From: Ecytonucleospora hepatopenaei
Taxonomy: Eukaryota > Microsporidia > Enterocytozoonidae
Assembly (NCBI GenBank): GCA_026692725.1
Contig: JAPMUG010000004.1
Span: 1 to 64,000 of the forward strand
Direction of reading: 5' to 3'
Length of the DNA: 64,000 nucleotides
The notes under the pieces are model-generated. The model was not told where the DNA came from. It did no database searches and was given only the letters and a program-made list of their open reading frames with translations. Made by a program: the position numbers and the translations under genes. This document shows, piece after piece, positions 13,724 through 52,620 of this stretch (position 1 is the stretch's first letter; each line of letters starts with the position of its first letter).

Positions 13724-16700
13724 TTATACTTTATATGCATTAACTATAATATGAGTAGTAGTAGTATTACTGTTTATACTATTAGTATTATATTTTTTAT
13801 TATTATATTTTTCCTTATAATATATTATACCTATACTTATTAATATTATTATACTTATTATATATAATATTACCTGTATATAAAATATTATCATAAATGT
13901 ACTTGTTTTTATATCTTCTACCTCATCTAATATAATTTCTTCATTTATATCATATTCTTTTATATTACTTATACTACTATCATTATGAGTAATATTGTAT
14001 TTTATATTTTTATTATTCTTTTTTATTAATTTGTTTATTTTCTTTAATTTATTGTTATTATCATATACATTATTGTAATATACATTATTATCATTATTAT
14101 CATTATTGTCATTATTATCATTATTATCATTAGTGTGTGTTATATCAGTATTATATGTATTATATGTATTAATAGTAGTATTTGTTATATTATCTAAAAA
14201 CCTTCTTATTTTATACTGTTTACTATTTATTTCTTTATTTATAATATTTTTTATTTTTACCTTACCTTCCCTTGGTATATATCTATAATACTTACTTTTT
14301 GTAAAATTATCATTTTCTATTAATAATGATATAACACTATATTTTGTATCTTTATTTTCTATTAGGTTTTCTATTAATTTTAATATATCTCTTTTACTTC
14401 TATATAATGATAATTTAATATTAAAATTATTATATCTATTATTGGTATTATATCTATTATTGGTATTATATCTATTATTAGTATTATATCTATTATTAGT
14501 ATTATATCTATTATTGGTATTAGTATATAGTTTATAACTTTTTATTATTATTTGTATTAATTCTATTAATCCCTTTGTCTTATCTTTTACCTTTTTATAA
14601 CATTCTATTTGTTTTTCTGTTATACACTCATTTATTATCTGTAATAATTTTATACTATTTTTATATCTATTATTTACAGTATAATTCCTTATTGATAAAT
14701 ATAATGTTAATAAATTACTTATACTTAAATTACTTAGTATATTCTCTTTATGTCTTTTTATTATTCTATTATGTTTTTCTATATTATCTACTTTATCCTC
14801 TATAAATATGTTACTTGTTAATATACTTATAATAGTATGTTTTATATTAGTATCAGTATTATTGATATTATATTGTTTTATATAATTTAACATTCTCTTT
14901 AATTTATTTCTGTTTATTTTTGTTATAGATAAAATCCATTTGTTTTTTATTGCTTCTGTAGTTATTGGATCAGTTATTAATTTTATTTCTTTTTTAGTTA
15001 AATTATTTAATTTATTATTTTCATTAATATCATTGGTATTAGTGTTAGTAGTATTAGTAGTATTTGTTATTGTATCATTAATATCATTAATATTAGTGGT
15101 ATTAGTAGTATTTGTAGTATTTGTTGTATTTGTTATTGTATTTTCAAATAAACTATATAAATCATAAGTAGATAACTCAGATTCCATATTACCTTTTTCT
15201 TCTAATATACTTATATTACTGTTATTTGTATTTATAATTGTATTATTATAAATATTATTGCCATTTGTTATATTATGTGTATTATTGATAATATTACTAT
15301 CTTCAGATGATATTTCCATATTTATTAAACTATCATCTGAACTTTCTATTTCTTCTCCATATGATAATCTATATAATGTATTAAGTGAAGTATCTACTGT
15401 TGTATTACTTTTCTTTTTATTTCTTAATAATACTTTTTCTTCAATTACAGTATTATCAATGTTACTAGTGGTATTTGATGTAGTTTTATTTATATCAGTA
15501 GAAAATATTGTATTTTCTATTTTATTGTTTGTTTTATTAGAATTTTTATCAAATAAATTATCAACAGGTAAAGGTGTATTGTTTGTTTCATCAAATAATT
15601 CATCAATATTTATTGATGAACTTTCTCTAAGTGAAGTACATGAATTTGAACTACACTCTTCAATTGTTATACTTGGTATTGTGTGTAAATTTTGATCTTT
15701 TAATAAATTATTATCTGAAATAATTTCTATTTCATAACTATTGTCTTTTGTTTCTAAAATATCTATACTATTATTTTCTTTTGATGTTTTTGAATTTTCA
15801 TCAGAAATATTATTTTTTAGTATTTTTAAACTTTCGTCACTACTATCTGGTAGTGCTGTATTTAATGATTTTTCATCAAAAATATTATTTGTTAATGATT
15901 TGTTGCTTTCTTCACTACTATCTGGTAGTGCTGTGTTTAATGCATGTTCATCAAGATTCATTTTTATTTCTGAACTATTTTCAGTATTAATATTTTGTTT
16001 GATATTATCATAATCATTTTCTGATAATGTCTCTGATAAATTTTTATTAATATCTAAATCTGAACTACTCTCTTTACTACTTATATTACTTGTATTACTT
16101 GTATTGGTTAAATTTGATGTATTACTTAAATTAGATAAATTACTTATATTACTTATATTACTTGTATTAGTTAAATTTGGTGTATTGGCAGTTACATCTG
16201 ATGTTTTAGTATTAGTACTGTTTGTAGCTTGTATTGGTTTTGTTTGATTATTTTCTGATATTTTGTATTTATTTAATAATGATTTGTGTAATACGAATAT
16301 ATTTTTTTGTTTTTTGCTTTTAATTCTTATGTTTTTATGCGCATAAAATTTACTTTTTCTTTTATCTTTTAAATATTTGTTTGTGTTTGTAATTTTATAT
16401 TTATTTTTACTTTTTATACTAATCTTATCATTTTCTTCTGTTGTAATGTTAGTATCACTTGATTTTTCTTTTTCCTTTTCTTTTTCCTTTACTTTTTCTT
16501 TTTCCTTTTCTTTTACTTTTTCCTTTACTTTTACTTTTTCTTTTTCTTTACAAGATGAATTTCCGCTAGGTAAATCTTTGTCTCCATTTAATGAATCTTT
16601 TTCTTCATATTGTAAATTTTTATTTTCTTGTATTTCTTCTTCTATACATGCAGTATCATTACCACCTGAAGTACCTTTTTCTTCTTTATTTTGTGTAACA

Positions 16701-48743: not shown

Positions 48744-49805
48744 ATGGTAAAAACTGTAAAGGATTTTCAGGAAAATACAATGACTGTTTTTAGCAAAAAA
48801 AGAAAGGAACTGTTTATATCCATGGCTTTTATGGAGTGTGTAGTTCCGGCTGCTATTTTTTTGGTTAATAGAAAGTATGTTTGTTTTTTAAGCACATTTG
48901 TGGCAATTAGCACTACTTTTTTCCTGAAAAAAATTTCAACTATTTTTTTACTTGTGTTTGGATGTGCCTTGCTTTTTTCAAACAGTTTTATTAGCATAAA
49001 AAATGTAAATAAGATATTTTATTTAGAAAAACAAGGTCATGTTTTAACACGCAAGGTTTTGATTAATTATGGTGCGATGGCAAACACAGCCGTGTGCTTC
49101 TTTGTGTTTCTGTTAGAGTGTATACATTTGTTGTTGAACAGCATAAAAATTAGCAAAAAATACAAAAAAAGAAAGAAAACATCAAAAGGAATAGTTGGCA
49201 TTGTTTTTAGTACTATTATATCTTTTAGTTATAAAAAACACGTGGAAATAATGATAATATTTCATACAATAATGCTTTTGTTTTATTTTACATTTATTAA
49301 GGTTTTCAATGTTTTTCTTGTTTTCGTGCGCTTTAAAATTTGCATAATTTCCATTGGAAAGTATTTGGTTGGTTGTGTAATTTTTGGTATTTCTATTATA
49401 CTGTTTGAAATGATCGTAAATGTAGCAATGGCTATTTTAAAGTATAACTATGACTTTTTTGATTGTAAATATATTTTGCTTCCTAATAATTTTCTCAGGG
49501 AATATTGTAAAGAAGATTTAAATGATCTGTTTGATGCAGCTGAAAAAACAAAAAATGAATATTTGGATATGTATAAGATAGTTGTGCCAAAAGGAACCAG
49601 CCAGGATGTAAAAGTGGTAAAGTGTATAAAATACACAGGTATATTTTATTATATAGCATATGTTATAAAAATGAAATTGTATAAAATAAGAGCAAATGCA
49701 ATTTTATCAGAAATAGAACTATCTCCTACACAGAGAGAAGAATCAAACAGTAAAATTGAAAAGCTAAACGAAGAAACGAGTGTAAAATTTAATAAAATTG
49801 AATAG
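48744..49805 (+). CDS. Hypothetical polytopic membrane protein
   Basis: A 353-residue protein with about six membrane spans in the first 235 residues (for example LFISMAFMECVVPAAIFLV, FLLVFGCALLFSNSFI, IFHTIMLLFYFTFIKVFNVF and VGCVIFGISIILFEMI) and a soluble C-terminal 115 residues. The six-span-then-soluble layout is that of nucleoporin NDC1, but I see no diagnostic motif and would not name it. CCC touches the ATG (48741-48743). Its stop codon lies within the antisense 3' end of the snoRNA candidate. Confidence 0.65.
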   Translation: MVKTVKDFQENTMTVFSKKRKELFISMAFMECVVPAAIFLVNRKYVCFLSTFVAISTTFFLKKISTIFLLVFGCALLFSNSFISIKNVNKIFYLEKQGHVLTRKVLINYGAMANTAVCFFVFLLECIHLLLNSIKISKKYKKRKKTSKGIVGIVFSTIISFSYKKHVEIMIIFHTIMLLFYFTFIKVFNVFLVFVRFKICIISIGKYLVGCVIFGISIILFEMIVNVAMAILKYNYDFFDCKYILLPNNFLREYCKEDLNDLFDAAEKTKNEYLDMYKIVVPKGTSQDVKVVKCIKYTGIFYYIAYVIKMKLYKIRANAILSEIELSPTQREESNSKIEKLNEETSVKFNKIE

Positions 49806-49860
49806 GTCAGAAGTGTCTTTAATCATCAGTCATACTGGGGCGACAAATTCATCATTCCTA
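49803..49860 (-). ncRNA. Box C/D snoRNA candidate, guide matching the LSU rRNA P-loop
   Basis: A 58-nt minus-strand element with every box C/D part. The terminal stem is TAGG (49860-49857) with CCTA (49806-49803). Box C is ATGATGA (49855-49849), box D' is ATGA (49833-49830), box C' is CTGATGA (49829-49823) and box D is CTGA (49810-49807). The D' guide (15 nt, ending CGCCCCAGT) is complementary to ACUGGGGCG, the near-universal P-loop of large-subunit rRNA. The fifth base before D' pairs with the second G of GGGG, which corresponds to E. coli G2251 and yeast Gm2619. The D guide is TTAAAGACACTT, target unknown. It lies between a plus-strand gene end and the beta-adaptin stop, and its sequence is visibly less AT-rich than its flanks. 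Confidence 0.75.
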
Positions 49861-50038
49861 CATTTTTATTTAAATTATATAATAGAAAATATTAAAACAT
49901 TTTATGGGTTTTTAAATGAATGTTATATTTTTATATATTTTATATTATTATACAATATATAAAAATATAAAAATATAAGGGTTATAAAATAAAATTTTTT
50001 TAAAAAATATTTTTATTTTATGTTTTAAGTATGTTATC

Positions 50039-52450
50039 TTATGATTTCTTTAGAATATTTAATACACACTCATTTCCCTTTATTATATGCTGTGAACCAA
50101 AATTCTTTCCATACACTTCCTCCAGTAATAACCTAAATACAAACTTGTTTTTATCTATGAAAAACTTTTCTTCAACCTCTAATCCATCTAATATTTCATA
50201 TCTCTCTATTTCTCCAAATCTTTTGTTAAAAAGTGATACGTCCATACTTATCTCTTCTATTAAATCTTCTGCCTTAATGGTGCAGGTGTATACTTTATCT
50301 TCAATAATAAAATCAACTTTCTCACCAATATCATCAAATTCTAAGTTATAAAGAAGTTTTGTTCCTGGCGTGCATATGTGTGACTTTTCTACCTTTTTGT
50401 TTATTTTTATGTAAATTATTTGCTCTTCATTTATTTCCTCAACATTAATAAAAATGCCTTTTCCTGTTGTAAAAATATTTCCTGTCATGCATTTTAAGTC
50501 GAATCTTATATTTTTTATATTTACGTTGCTAATTAAATTGTCACTTTCCTCACTATTTGTAAGAGATATGCTATCATTTGTATTTACACATATAGATGGC
50601 TTTTTGATTTCTTTTTTGTCTTCTTCCGGGTTGTTAAGCTCTACTTTTACATTTTCTTCAGAACTATCACATATTTTTCCTAGTTTTTGTCTGATATTTT
50701 CAAGGTCAAAACAATTTGATTCTTGTTTTACATCCGATTGTATTTTATCATAATTAATATCAGTATTTAAATCATTAATTACACTATTGTGATTATTAAC
50801 ATCCTTATCATTAATTACATTATTGTAATTTTTGTCTTTTTGGTAAAATATTTCCAACCGTGTAGTATTATCATCTAACTCTCTGTATGTATGCATCAAA
50901 TCATTAAAATTAATTTTTAAAGAATGATGTGTATATGGAAATAGATTGTCTGCTAGTGATATATCTATTTGTTTTAAGATCAAATTGATTATTTTTGTAT
51001 TTTTATTTTCTTTTTTTACAATGTTAAGAAAATTTATGCATTGGTCCTTGCTAATAAATCCATTTTCTCTCATTTTCAGGTAATATCTAATAAGTTGGTG
51101 GTTATTATTTTTTAATTTAAGTGCAAACTTAGGTATGTTTTTGCATGTGTGTGATGCAACCTCTAAATACATTTGTTCATTTTGTGTTGATGGTTTTATT
51201 GTGTTTAAAAATTTTAAAATGTCTTCTTCCCAGTTTAAAAATACTAAGGAATTGTTTTCTATAAATTTTTCTTTATTTCTCAGTAAAATTTCAATAATTT
51301 TGTTTTTTTCTTCTTCTGATACAAAACAAAGAATTCCAGGCAAGTAAATTTGCTTGTTAATGCACATTTCAAATATTTCAGGAAGCAAAAGCTTCCTTCC
51401 CACCAAGTATTTGATCTCACTAATTGCAAATTCAGAAATATTTTTTGATAAAATCAAGAACTTCACTCTTTTTATATCCAAACTGTCATTTTCACATATT
51501 ACAAACAAAGATTCCTCGTATTTTACGCTGTATTTAAATATTAAAAAATACAAATATTTTAAAACATTATACTGCTGTTCATGTCTCAAGTTTAAAAAGC
51601 CTAGTCCCTGGTCAAAAACCATCTGTGCGTATTTTTCTCCTTCCTTCAGAAGAATCAGCTGTCCTACTGTTCCAAATATGCATACATCTCCGCATATTAG
51701 CAATCTCACCAGTATTTCTGTGTCTATGTCTGTGTTTTTCATACTTAACAATATTTTTAATGCATATCCAATACTGGCATAATCTCCTTCTTCTACCAGT
51801 GCCTTTATCATTGAAATTATCTTGTCGCTAGAAACTATGTGCTCATATTTTTCAATTTCAGAAAGTACGACCAGTGCGTTGTACATGGTGTTTTTTCTAT
51901 CCAAGCACTCAATTACAAAATAATCAAACTTGTTTTCCAGAAAGCTTTCTCTGTTTATTTTGTAAAGATTGTACATGTTAAGAAGAAGCACTTCTATTGT
52001 TTCTTTTTTGTCACGGTTACCAGAGTTTGACAAAATCGACTTAAATTCTTCTACATAGCTTTTTATCACCACTTCATCAGAAACTGCAAAACAGTCTTGA
52101 ATGGCCATATTTACTATTTTGCTGTTTGTGCTTCTCATGTCTTTTATAAAAGAATTGGTGTATAAAAGAATGTTAGCTGGTGCATTTGAAAAGTTTGTTT
52201 TTAAATATAAATTAACCATCCGTTTTATTTCTACGCTTGTACTGCACATTAGCTTAACCATTTCCCCATGAAATTCAGAAACATCGTAGCCCTGCTGCTG
52301 CATGCTTATGATTGTTTTTATTGCATCCATACAGGTTGAAGAATATTTTAAATCTTCATGTATGTATGTCAAGGAAGTTGCACTCATTAGGTTATTGCCT
52401 CCAAGGACTTGCTTTATCTTATTTTTTACTAATTTTTTGTATTTTTCCAT
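50039..52450 (-). CDS. Beta-adaptin (AP complex large subunit)
   Basis: An 803-residue adaptin of a clathrin adaptor complex. The HEAT-repeat trunk matches beta-adaptins: CMDAIKTIISMQQQGYDVSE, EIKRMVNLYLKTNFSNAPAN, NSFIKDMRSTNSKIVNMAIQ and SLDIKRVKFLILSKNISEFA. A charged hinge lies at about residues 550-640 with a clathrin-box-like short acidic region not clearly identifiable. The C-terminal 170 residues resemble an appendage but are divergent. Whether it serves AP-1 or AP-2 cannot be told. The ATG at 52450 is used rather than the TTG upstream. Confidence 0.85.
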   Translation of the reverse strand: MEKYKKLVKNKIKQVLGGNNLMSATSLTYIHEDLKYSSTCMDAIKTIISMQQQGYDVSEFHGEMVKLMCSTSVEIKRMVNLYLKTNFSNAPANILLYTNSFIKDMRSTNSKIVNMAIQDCFAVSDEVVIKSYVEEFKSILSNSGNRDKKETIEVLLLNMYNLYKINRESFLENKFDYFVIECLDRKNTMYNALVVLSEIEKYEHIVSSDKIISMIKALVEEGDYASIGYALKILLSMKNTDIDTEILVRLLICGDVCIFGTVGQLILLKEGEKYAQMVFDQGLGFLNLRHEQQYNVLKYLYFLIFKYSVKYEESLFVICENDSLDIKRVKFLILSKNISEFAISEIKYLVGRKLLLPEIFEMCINKQIYLPGILCFVSEEEKNKIIEILLRNKEKFIENNSLVFLNWEEDILKFLNTIKPSTQNEQMYLEVASHTCKNIPKFALKLKNNNHQLIRYYLKMRENGFISKDQCINFLNIVKKENKNTKIINLILKQIDISLADNLFPYTHHSLKINFNDLMHTYRELDDNTTRLEIFYQKDKNYNNVINDKDVNNHNSVINDLNTDINYDKIQSDVKQESNCFDLENIRQKLGKICDSSEENVKVELNNPEEDKKEIKKPSICVNTNDSISLTNSEESDNLISNVNIKNIRFDLKCMTGNIFTTGKGIFINVEEINEEQIIYIKINKKVEKSHICTPGTKLLYNLEFDDIGEKVDFIIEDKVYTCTIKAEDLIEEISMDVSLFNKRFGEIERYEILDGLEVEEKFFIDKNKFVFRLLLEEVYGKNFGSQHIIKGNECVLNILKKS

Positions 52451-52620
52451 GAAAAACAAACAAATTTGTTTTAAAACATAAAATAAACAATTTAATTATA
52501 AAAAAATCATCACCAAATGTTTTAAAATTAATAAATTTGTATATATCATCAAAAATTGTAATGTTAATATGTATTTGATATTCATTTATTTAAAAATAAA
52601 ATAAAACAAAGACAAATACC

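Follow-up and report, generated by a model that had tools for sequence, protein, structure and literature searches.

A 58-nt element on the minus strand (49803..49860) of the 64,000-nt stretch analysed here, hereafter the window, very probably encodes a compact box C/D snoRNA of this microsporidian that has a single guide and is functionally equivalent to, and probably related by descent to, SNORD31 of vertebrates, snR67 of yeast, and GLsR4 of Giardia. Taken singly, box motifs and complementarity are each close to chance level, and neither is proof; the snoRNA call has its weight because boxes and complementarity agree with other lines of evidence. This kind of snoRNA is already known, as are its compact size and its P-loop target in other organisms, and the element is a further member.

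Read on the minus strand from 49860 to 49803, the element is UAGG-A-AUGAUGA(C)-AUUUGUCGCCCCAGU-AUGA(D')-CUG-AUGAUUA(C')-AAGACACUU-CUGA(D)-CCUA, which agrees with the initial annotation of a 58-nt unit carrying a terminal stem and C, D', C', and D boxes in this order. The two strands of the terminal stem, UAGG (49857..49860) and CCUA (49803..49806), form 4 bp that bring together the C box (AUGAUGA, 49849..49855; consensus RUGAUGA), separated from the stem by a one-nt spacer A (49856), and the D box (CUGA, 49807..49810), the arrangement characteristic of box C/D RNAs. The D' guide UGUCGCCCCAGU occupies 49834..49845 and the D' box AUGA occupies 49830..49833. The earlier reading gave spacers of 15 and 12 nt, the second of which implies a C' box CUGAUGA (49823-49829) touching D'. 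The guide-bearing spacer from C to D' is indeed 15 nt long, but AUGAUUA (49820..49826) is the more likely C' box, with a spacer of 9 nt between C' and D, because D' and C' lie 2–3 nt apart in four distinct sister guides found elsewhere in the genome; in the element, AUGA and AUGAUUA are 3 nt apart and in register with these guides.

The element sits between two convergent genes, namely an orphan plus-strand ORF of 353 aa (48744..49805) and a minus-strand ORF of 806 aa with an Adaptin_N domain (50039..52459), the stop of which is separated from the snoRNA by 178 nt. The last three bases of the element, within the 3' strand of its stem, are the complement of the TAG stop codon (49803-49805) of the plus-strand ORF, and the overlap described previously is therefore real. 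No Pfam family was found in the 353-aa ORF at E ≤ 0.01, and the sole match in a protein search with it was a 327-aa copy of itself.

According to the initial annotation, the D' guide is complementary to the P-loop of the LSU rRNA, and the fifth-base rule places the methyl group on the equivalent of E. coli Gm2251 and yeast Gm2619. In all three rDNA copies checked, the P-loop of this organism reads GCUGGGGCGG (fuller stretch GUUUGGCUGGGGCGGCACGA), and the guide UGUCGCCCCAGU pairs with GCUGGGGCGGCA (LSU 2061-2072) over 12 continuous positions, including two G·U pairs, one of which adjoins D'. The complementarity itself thus stands, but the exact complement ACUGGGGCG is absent from the LSU and occurs once in the 3.09-Mb genome, inside the element itself. 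LSU position 2061 (E. coli 2247) is G here and A in E. coli; it is the first position paired with the guide, hence a G·U pair, whereas the A that yeast has there would make it an A-U pair. Opposite the fifth guide base upstream of D' is LSU G2065, which in an alignment to E. coli 23S rRNA corresponds to G2251, and the predicted target is accordingly the Gm2251-equivalent G of the P-loop, as had been proposed. On the D' side, the element therefore has the approximately 10 or more pairs upstream of D or D', with the target at D+5, that are expected of a methylation guide; on the D side, 8 pairs to rRNA were found at best, and no second guide is convincing. Comparison of the guide with this organism's own rRNA, which had been suggested as a check, identified the P-loop as the best 14-nt window of LSU and SSU by duplex energy (−24.5 kcal/mol); the runner-up site gave −19.8 kcal/mol, and reversed rRNA reached −20.3 kcal/mol at best. 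The corresponding base is methylated in E. coli (Gm2251, by RlmB), yeast (Gm2619, by snR67), human (Gm4196), and Arabidopsis (Gm2620) (PMC11121408; PMC11542601), and this P-loop G lies near the CCA end of the P-site tRNA (PMC11542601).

The same duplex bears on the idea that the element encodes a genuine C/D RNA that leaves the P-loop unmethylated, being instead a decayed guide, a chaperone of pre-rRNA folding, or an RNA regulating the convergent gene in antisense. The two wobbles in the guide and the 3-nt antisense overlap with the end of the 353-aa ORF would fit such a role. All boxes and the stem are intact, however, the 12-bp duplex around the target G is continuous, and the overlap with the opposite reading frame amounts to 3 nt only, although a 3' UTR could overlap further. 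We consider this explanation very unlikely.

It is likewise highly improbable, in our view, that the element is a chance look-alike, that is, an AT-rich intergenic stretch in which C, D, and stem motifs coincide with a GC-rich 12-mer complementary to rRNA and from which no RNA is made, even though each feature taken alone is near chance. In 60 dinucleotide shuffles of the window, C..C'..D patterns numbered 0.17 on average (maximum 2) and C/D frames with a 4-bp stem 0.22, compared with one observed in each case. A guide score of at least 14 was reached at 12 of 7341 NTGA sites, the element included, and reversing the rRNA gave 15 such sites out of 7341; with counts so alike, complementarity was dropped as a stand-alone test. 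A first complementarity count (56 vs. 13 of 5340) was also dropped because the sequence L011/L012 contains an rDNA copy. A frame at C5:310886-310930 even scores higher than the element: its 14 pairs to LSU are the top rRNA complementarity among the 41 C..D'..D frames listed genome-wide, and it fits the C..C'..D pattern. It was set aside as probably due to chance, having two stem pairs only and lying within an open frame of 400 codons on the opposite strand. The C-guide-D' motif is also present in genome contigs of other organisms (at least 120 matches, those listed nearly all bacterial) and in viral contigs (76 stretches), and a D box is in reach at 13 of the 196 loci listed from these two sets.

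What speaks against coincidence is that a leave-one-out covariance model, the exact placement of D+5 on a base whose methylation extends from bacteria to humans, and sub-threshold matches to SNORD31, U31b, and GlsR4 agree on the element and its target. A scan of 270,808 bases (rDNA included) returned three stem-closed C/D frames, two of which score at least 8.5; the element's guide scored 14.0 and the best decoys 10.5 and 9.0. Among the 41 frames listed genome-wide, the element ranks third, and the highest of 82 decoy values was 13.5 vs. 14.0.

The covariance model was built from four distinct sister sequences with the element left out. Searched over 276,287 genome bases, it placed the element next after the training loci, with exact ends (32.9 bits, E = 2.5e-4), and the best other non-member reached 18.7 bits (E = 0.39). 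Over the window alone, the element was found at E = 5.7e-5 and the next match had 17.1 bits; these E-values are rough, the model is derived from four sequences, and the leave-one-out procedure is not fully independent, as the sisters were found by a pattern sharing box motifs with the element. In a five-row alignment whose rows had been trimmed to the stem beforehand, and which takes the homology of its rows as given rather than demonstrated, 19 of the 20 stem cells are paired and each of the four pairs varies on both strands of the stem, which none of 500 shuffles reached.

The sister guides were identified in the whole genome (3,094,744 bases in 13 contigs). A C..C'..D pattern matched 11 places, compared with none for a reversed-pattern control, and six of these places are the element and five sister loci (four distinct sequences). 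At least five distinct compact guides, including the element, are thus present at six loci. In all five sister loci, 3–6 pairs form a terminal stem, and a single A separates it from the C box, as in the element. None of them lies in a long open frame, and no stop-free stretch of at least 60 codons is present within 1.3 kb of C5:58214 and C13:15661; C5:420944 and the C6 pair are overlapped by stretches of 70 and 71 codons without a stop, so that "intergenic" is not strictly established for the sister loci.

The guide at C5:58214-58262 has the longest stem (6 bp), 9 bp of complementarity to SSU at U341, and weak Rfam matches to snoR12 and SNORD2. The guide at C5:420944-420988 has an identical copy at C13:15661-15705, with a D' guide forming 11 bp with SSU at U157 and a D guide forming 10 bp with LSU at U889. 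The two copies are identical over all 55 bases, and their flanks are 63–79% alike; shuffling the upstream flank gave a mean agreement of 58% and a maximum of 63%. Such identity within diverged flanks speaks for selection on the putative RNA.

Two further guides are neighbours on C6 (193995-194039 and 194061-194109), with 21 nt between a D box and the next UGAUGA. The former forms 12 bp with ACAGGGAUAACU, and its D+5 base, LSU 2256, aligns to E. coli 2446. By arithmetic from yeast Psi2826, which equals E. coli Psi2457, we infer that this target is the yeast Gm2815 site. The best Rfam match of this guide is snoR38 (35.3 bits; gathering score 45), which is listed for the Gm2815 site under another numbering, Gm2812 (PMC3511168; PMC2656528). 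The latter guide forms 9 bp with the sarcin-ricin loop, and its D+5 position is the equivalent of A2660 (LSU 2464); its score of 11.5 falls within the decoy range and its first position is unpaired. In plants, the sarcin-ricin loop is seemingly without 2'-O-methylation (PMC11542601). In Tetrahymena, extensive complementarity of a guide to the base of the sarcin-ricin stem is reported to have given no methylation there (PMC6315972). With low probability, the guides kept by this microsporidian are a pared-down set of C/D RNAs with one guide each, close to archaeal ones in size, that target functional centres, namely the P-loop G2251, G2446 beside the peptidyl transferase centre, and the sarcin-ricin A2660; if so, the ricin-target adenosine of this microsporidian would carry a ribose methyl.

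The remaining four of the 11 places (C6:136712, C7:131240, C8:74120, and C10:17340) were set aside by eye, only C7:131240 having been scored against rRNA. A second genome pattern matched 15 places (control 1), five of which are the sister loci; seven of the other ten (two mutually identical) were scored against rRNA, with C1:86292, C5:631337, and C6:73936 left out. A third pattern matched the element alone (control 0), and a fourth matched ten places (control 0); five of these are the element and four sister loci, and the remaining five were all scored against rRNA. None of the places beyond the element and the sister loci in the second and fourth patterns was accepted as a member. A further pattern matched 216 places (control 55). 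Complementarity to rRNA was also noted at C6:267676-267728 (12.0; decoy 8.0), C9:57859-57912 (12.0), and C1:111790-111828 (11.5).

At curated cut-offs, Rfam reported two tRNAs only in the window, and at E ≤ 1 over the 64-kb window these two tRNAs were joined by SNORD31 at 49862..49801 (E = 0.27). At E ≤ 2 on the 3-kb locus, SNORD31, plant snoU31b, Giardia GlsR4, and archaeal sR23 all matched at the element, and a fifth match, FtrA, lay away from it; this listing omits one lower-scoring match of the same clan, and Rfam E-values are lenient on short stretches (28 families at E ≤ 5 on 301 bases). All C/D matches at the element are below their gathering scores (SNORD31, 25.3 vs. 40 bits; snoU31b, 23.2 vs. 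37 bits; GLsR4, a weak 22.6 vs. 70 bits). We therefore call the element U31-like by its guide and predicted target, and not a curated member of clan CL00053. The part that the Rfam alignments of SNORD31, snoU31b, and GlsR4 have in common with the element is the guide CGCCCCAGU together with the boxes; GLsR4 and U31 are P-loop guides according to the literature, and U31b is one by name.

With SNORD31/U31 (RF00089, clan CL00053; human 28S Gm4166), the element shares its C and D boxes, its predicted target, and the D' guide CGCCCCAGU with UGA after it. The Rfam consensus of plant U31b/snoR35 matches the element over AUUUGUCGCCCCAGU. In yeast, snR67 additionally guides Um2724, whereas the element lacks a convincing guide for a second target. 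The shared feature with snR67 (RF01177) is the guide for G2619, the equivalent of E. coli Gm2251 (PMC11121408), and Arabidopsis Gm2620 is guided likewise (PMC11542601). The element differs from SNORD31 in length (58 nt vs. a 69-position model) and from human U31, which is intronic (PMC2656528), in its location between two convergent genes. U31 Gm4166 is paired with snR67 in PMC3511168, and human Gm4196 with yeast Gm2619 and E. coli Gm2251 in PMC11542601; we infer that human 4166 and 4196 are one base under two numberings.

The compactness of the element had initially been regarded as unusual, a view that is not supported, as Giardia GLsR4 (RF02473; 23S Gm2040) has the same target and nearly the same size (61 nt). 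GLsR4 is listed as a homologue of snR67/U31, and another compact Giardia RNA, GLsR6, is 51 nt long (PMC11427974). A P-loop guide, PFS5, is also known from Plasmodium (PMC2656528). Microsporidian snoRNAs have been reported before, including 10 in Encephalitozoon cuniculi (Belkorchia et al., 2017, as cited in PMC6461891), and 15 of 18 Encephalitozoon snRNAs and snoRNAs are also found in Nosema (as cited in PMC13276322). No list of microsporidian guides was found in the literature consulted, including passages of PMC10815200, PMC3749934, and PMC3629993.

The genome encodes fibrillarin (PF01269; one match, E = 1.2e-94), the closest named relatives of which, among the best 120 of 5879 matches, are from Enterospora canceri (72% identity over 97%), Enterocytozoon bieneusi (80% over 84%), and Nucleospora cyclopteri (72% over 95%); the organism probably belongs to the group of these three. 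Two Nop56/58-type proteins (PF01798) were identified, both with Nop56 as the best PDB relative and Nop58 below it. Five matches to the L7Ae family (PF01248) were found, including a 116-aa protein that matches archaeal L7Ae, Snu13, and Nhp2 chains; Snu13 is likely encoded, without being pinned to one gene. The core proteins of box C/D RNPs (fibrillarin, Nop56, Nop58, and Snu13) thus appear to be represented in this genome.

As a methylation guide, the RNA might be transcribed from a promoter of its own or derive from the 3' portion of the transcript of the upstream adaptin-type gene. Boxes C and D would form a K-turn and bind a Snu13-like protein, Nop56/58 and fibrillarin would then join, and fibrillarin would methylate the 2'-OH of G2065 in the P-loop of the LSU rRNA. 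The findings suggest that a eukaryotic genome reduced to 3.09 Mb has retained the machinery together with at least two guides for methylations that are deeply conserved (Gm2251 and Gm2815 sites), and they provide a short, testable list of predicted methylation sites for microsporidian ribosomes. Because the Rfam matches at these loci are below gathering scores, annotation at curated thresholds can miss such genes.

The SSU rRNA used here fits the Rfam microsporidian model with 1186.6 bits, and an LSU search of the genome returned two places. A third rDNA unit, absent from the listing of that search, lies to the right of the window, at about 66–70 kb of C8 (L011/L012). Within the window, near-identical 24-mers are present on the minus strand at 15840 and 15915, 75 bases apart, and form part of a possible repeat.
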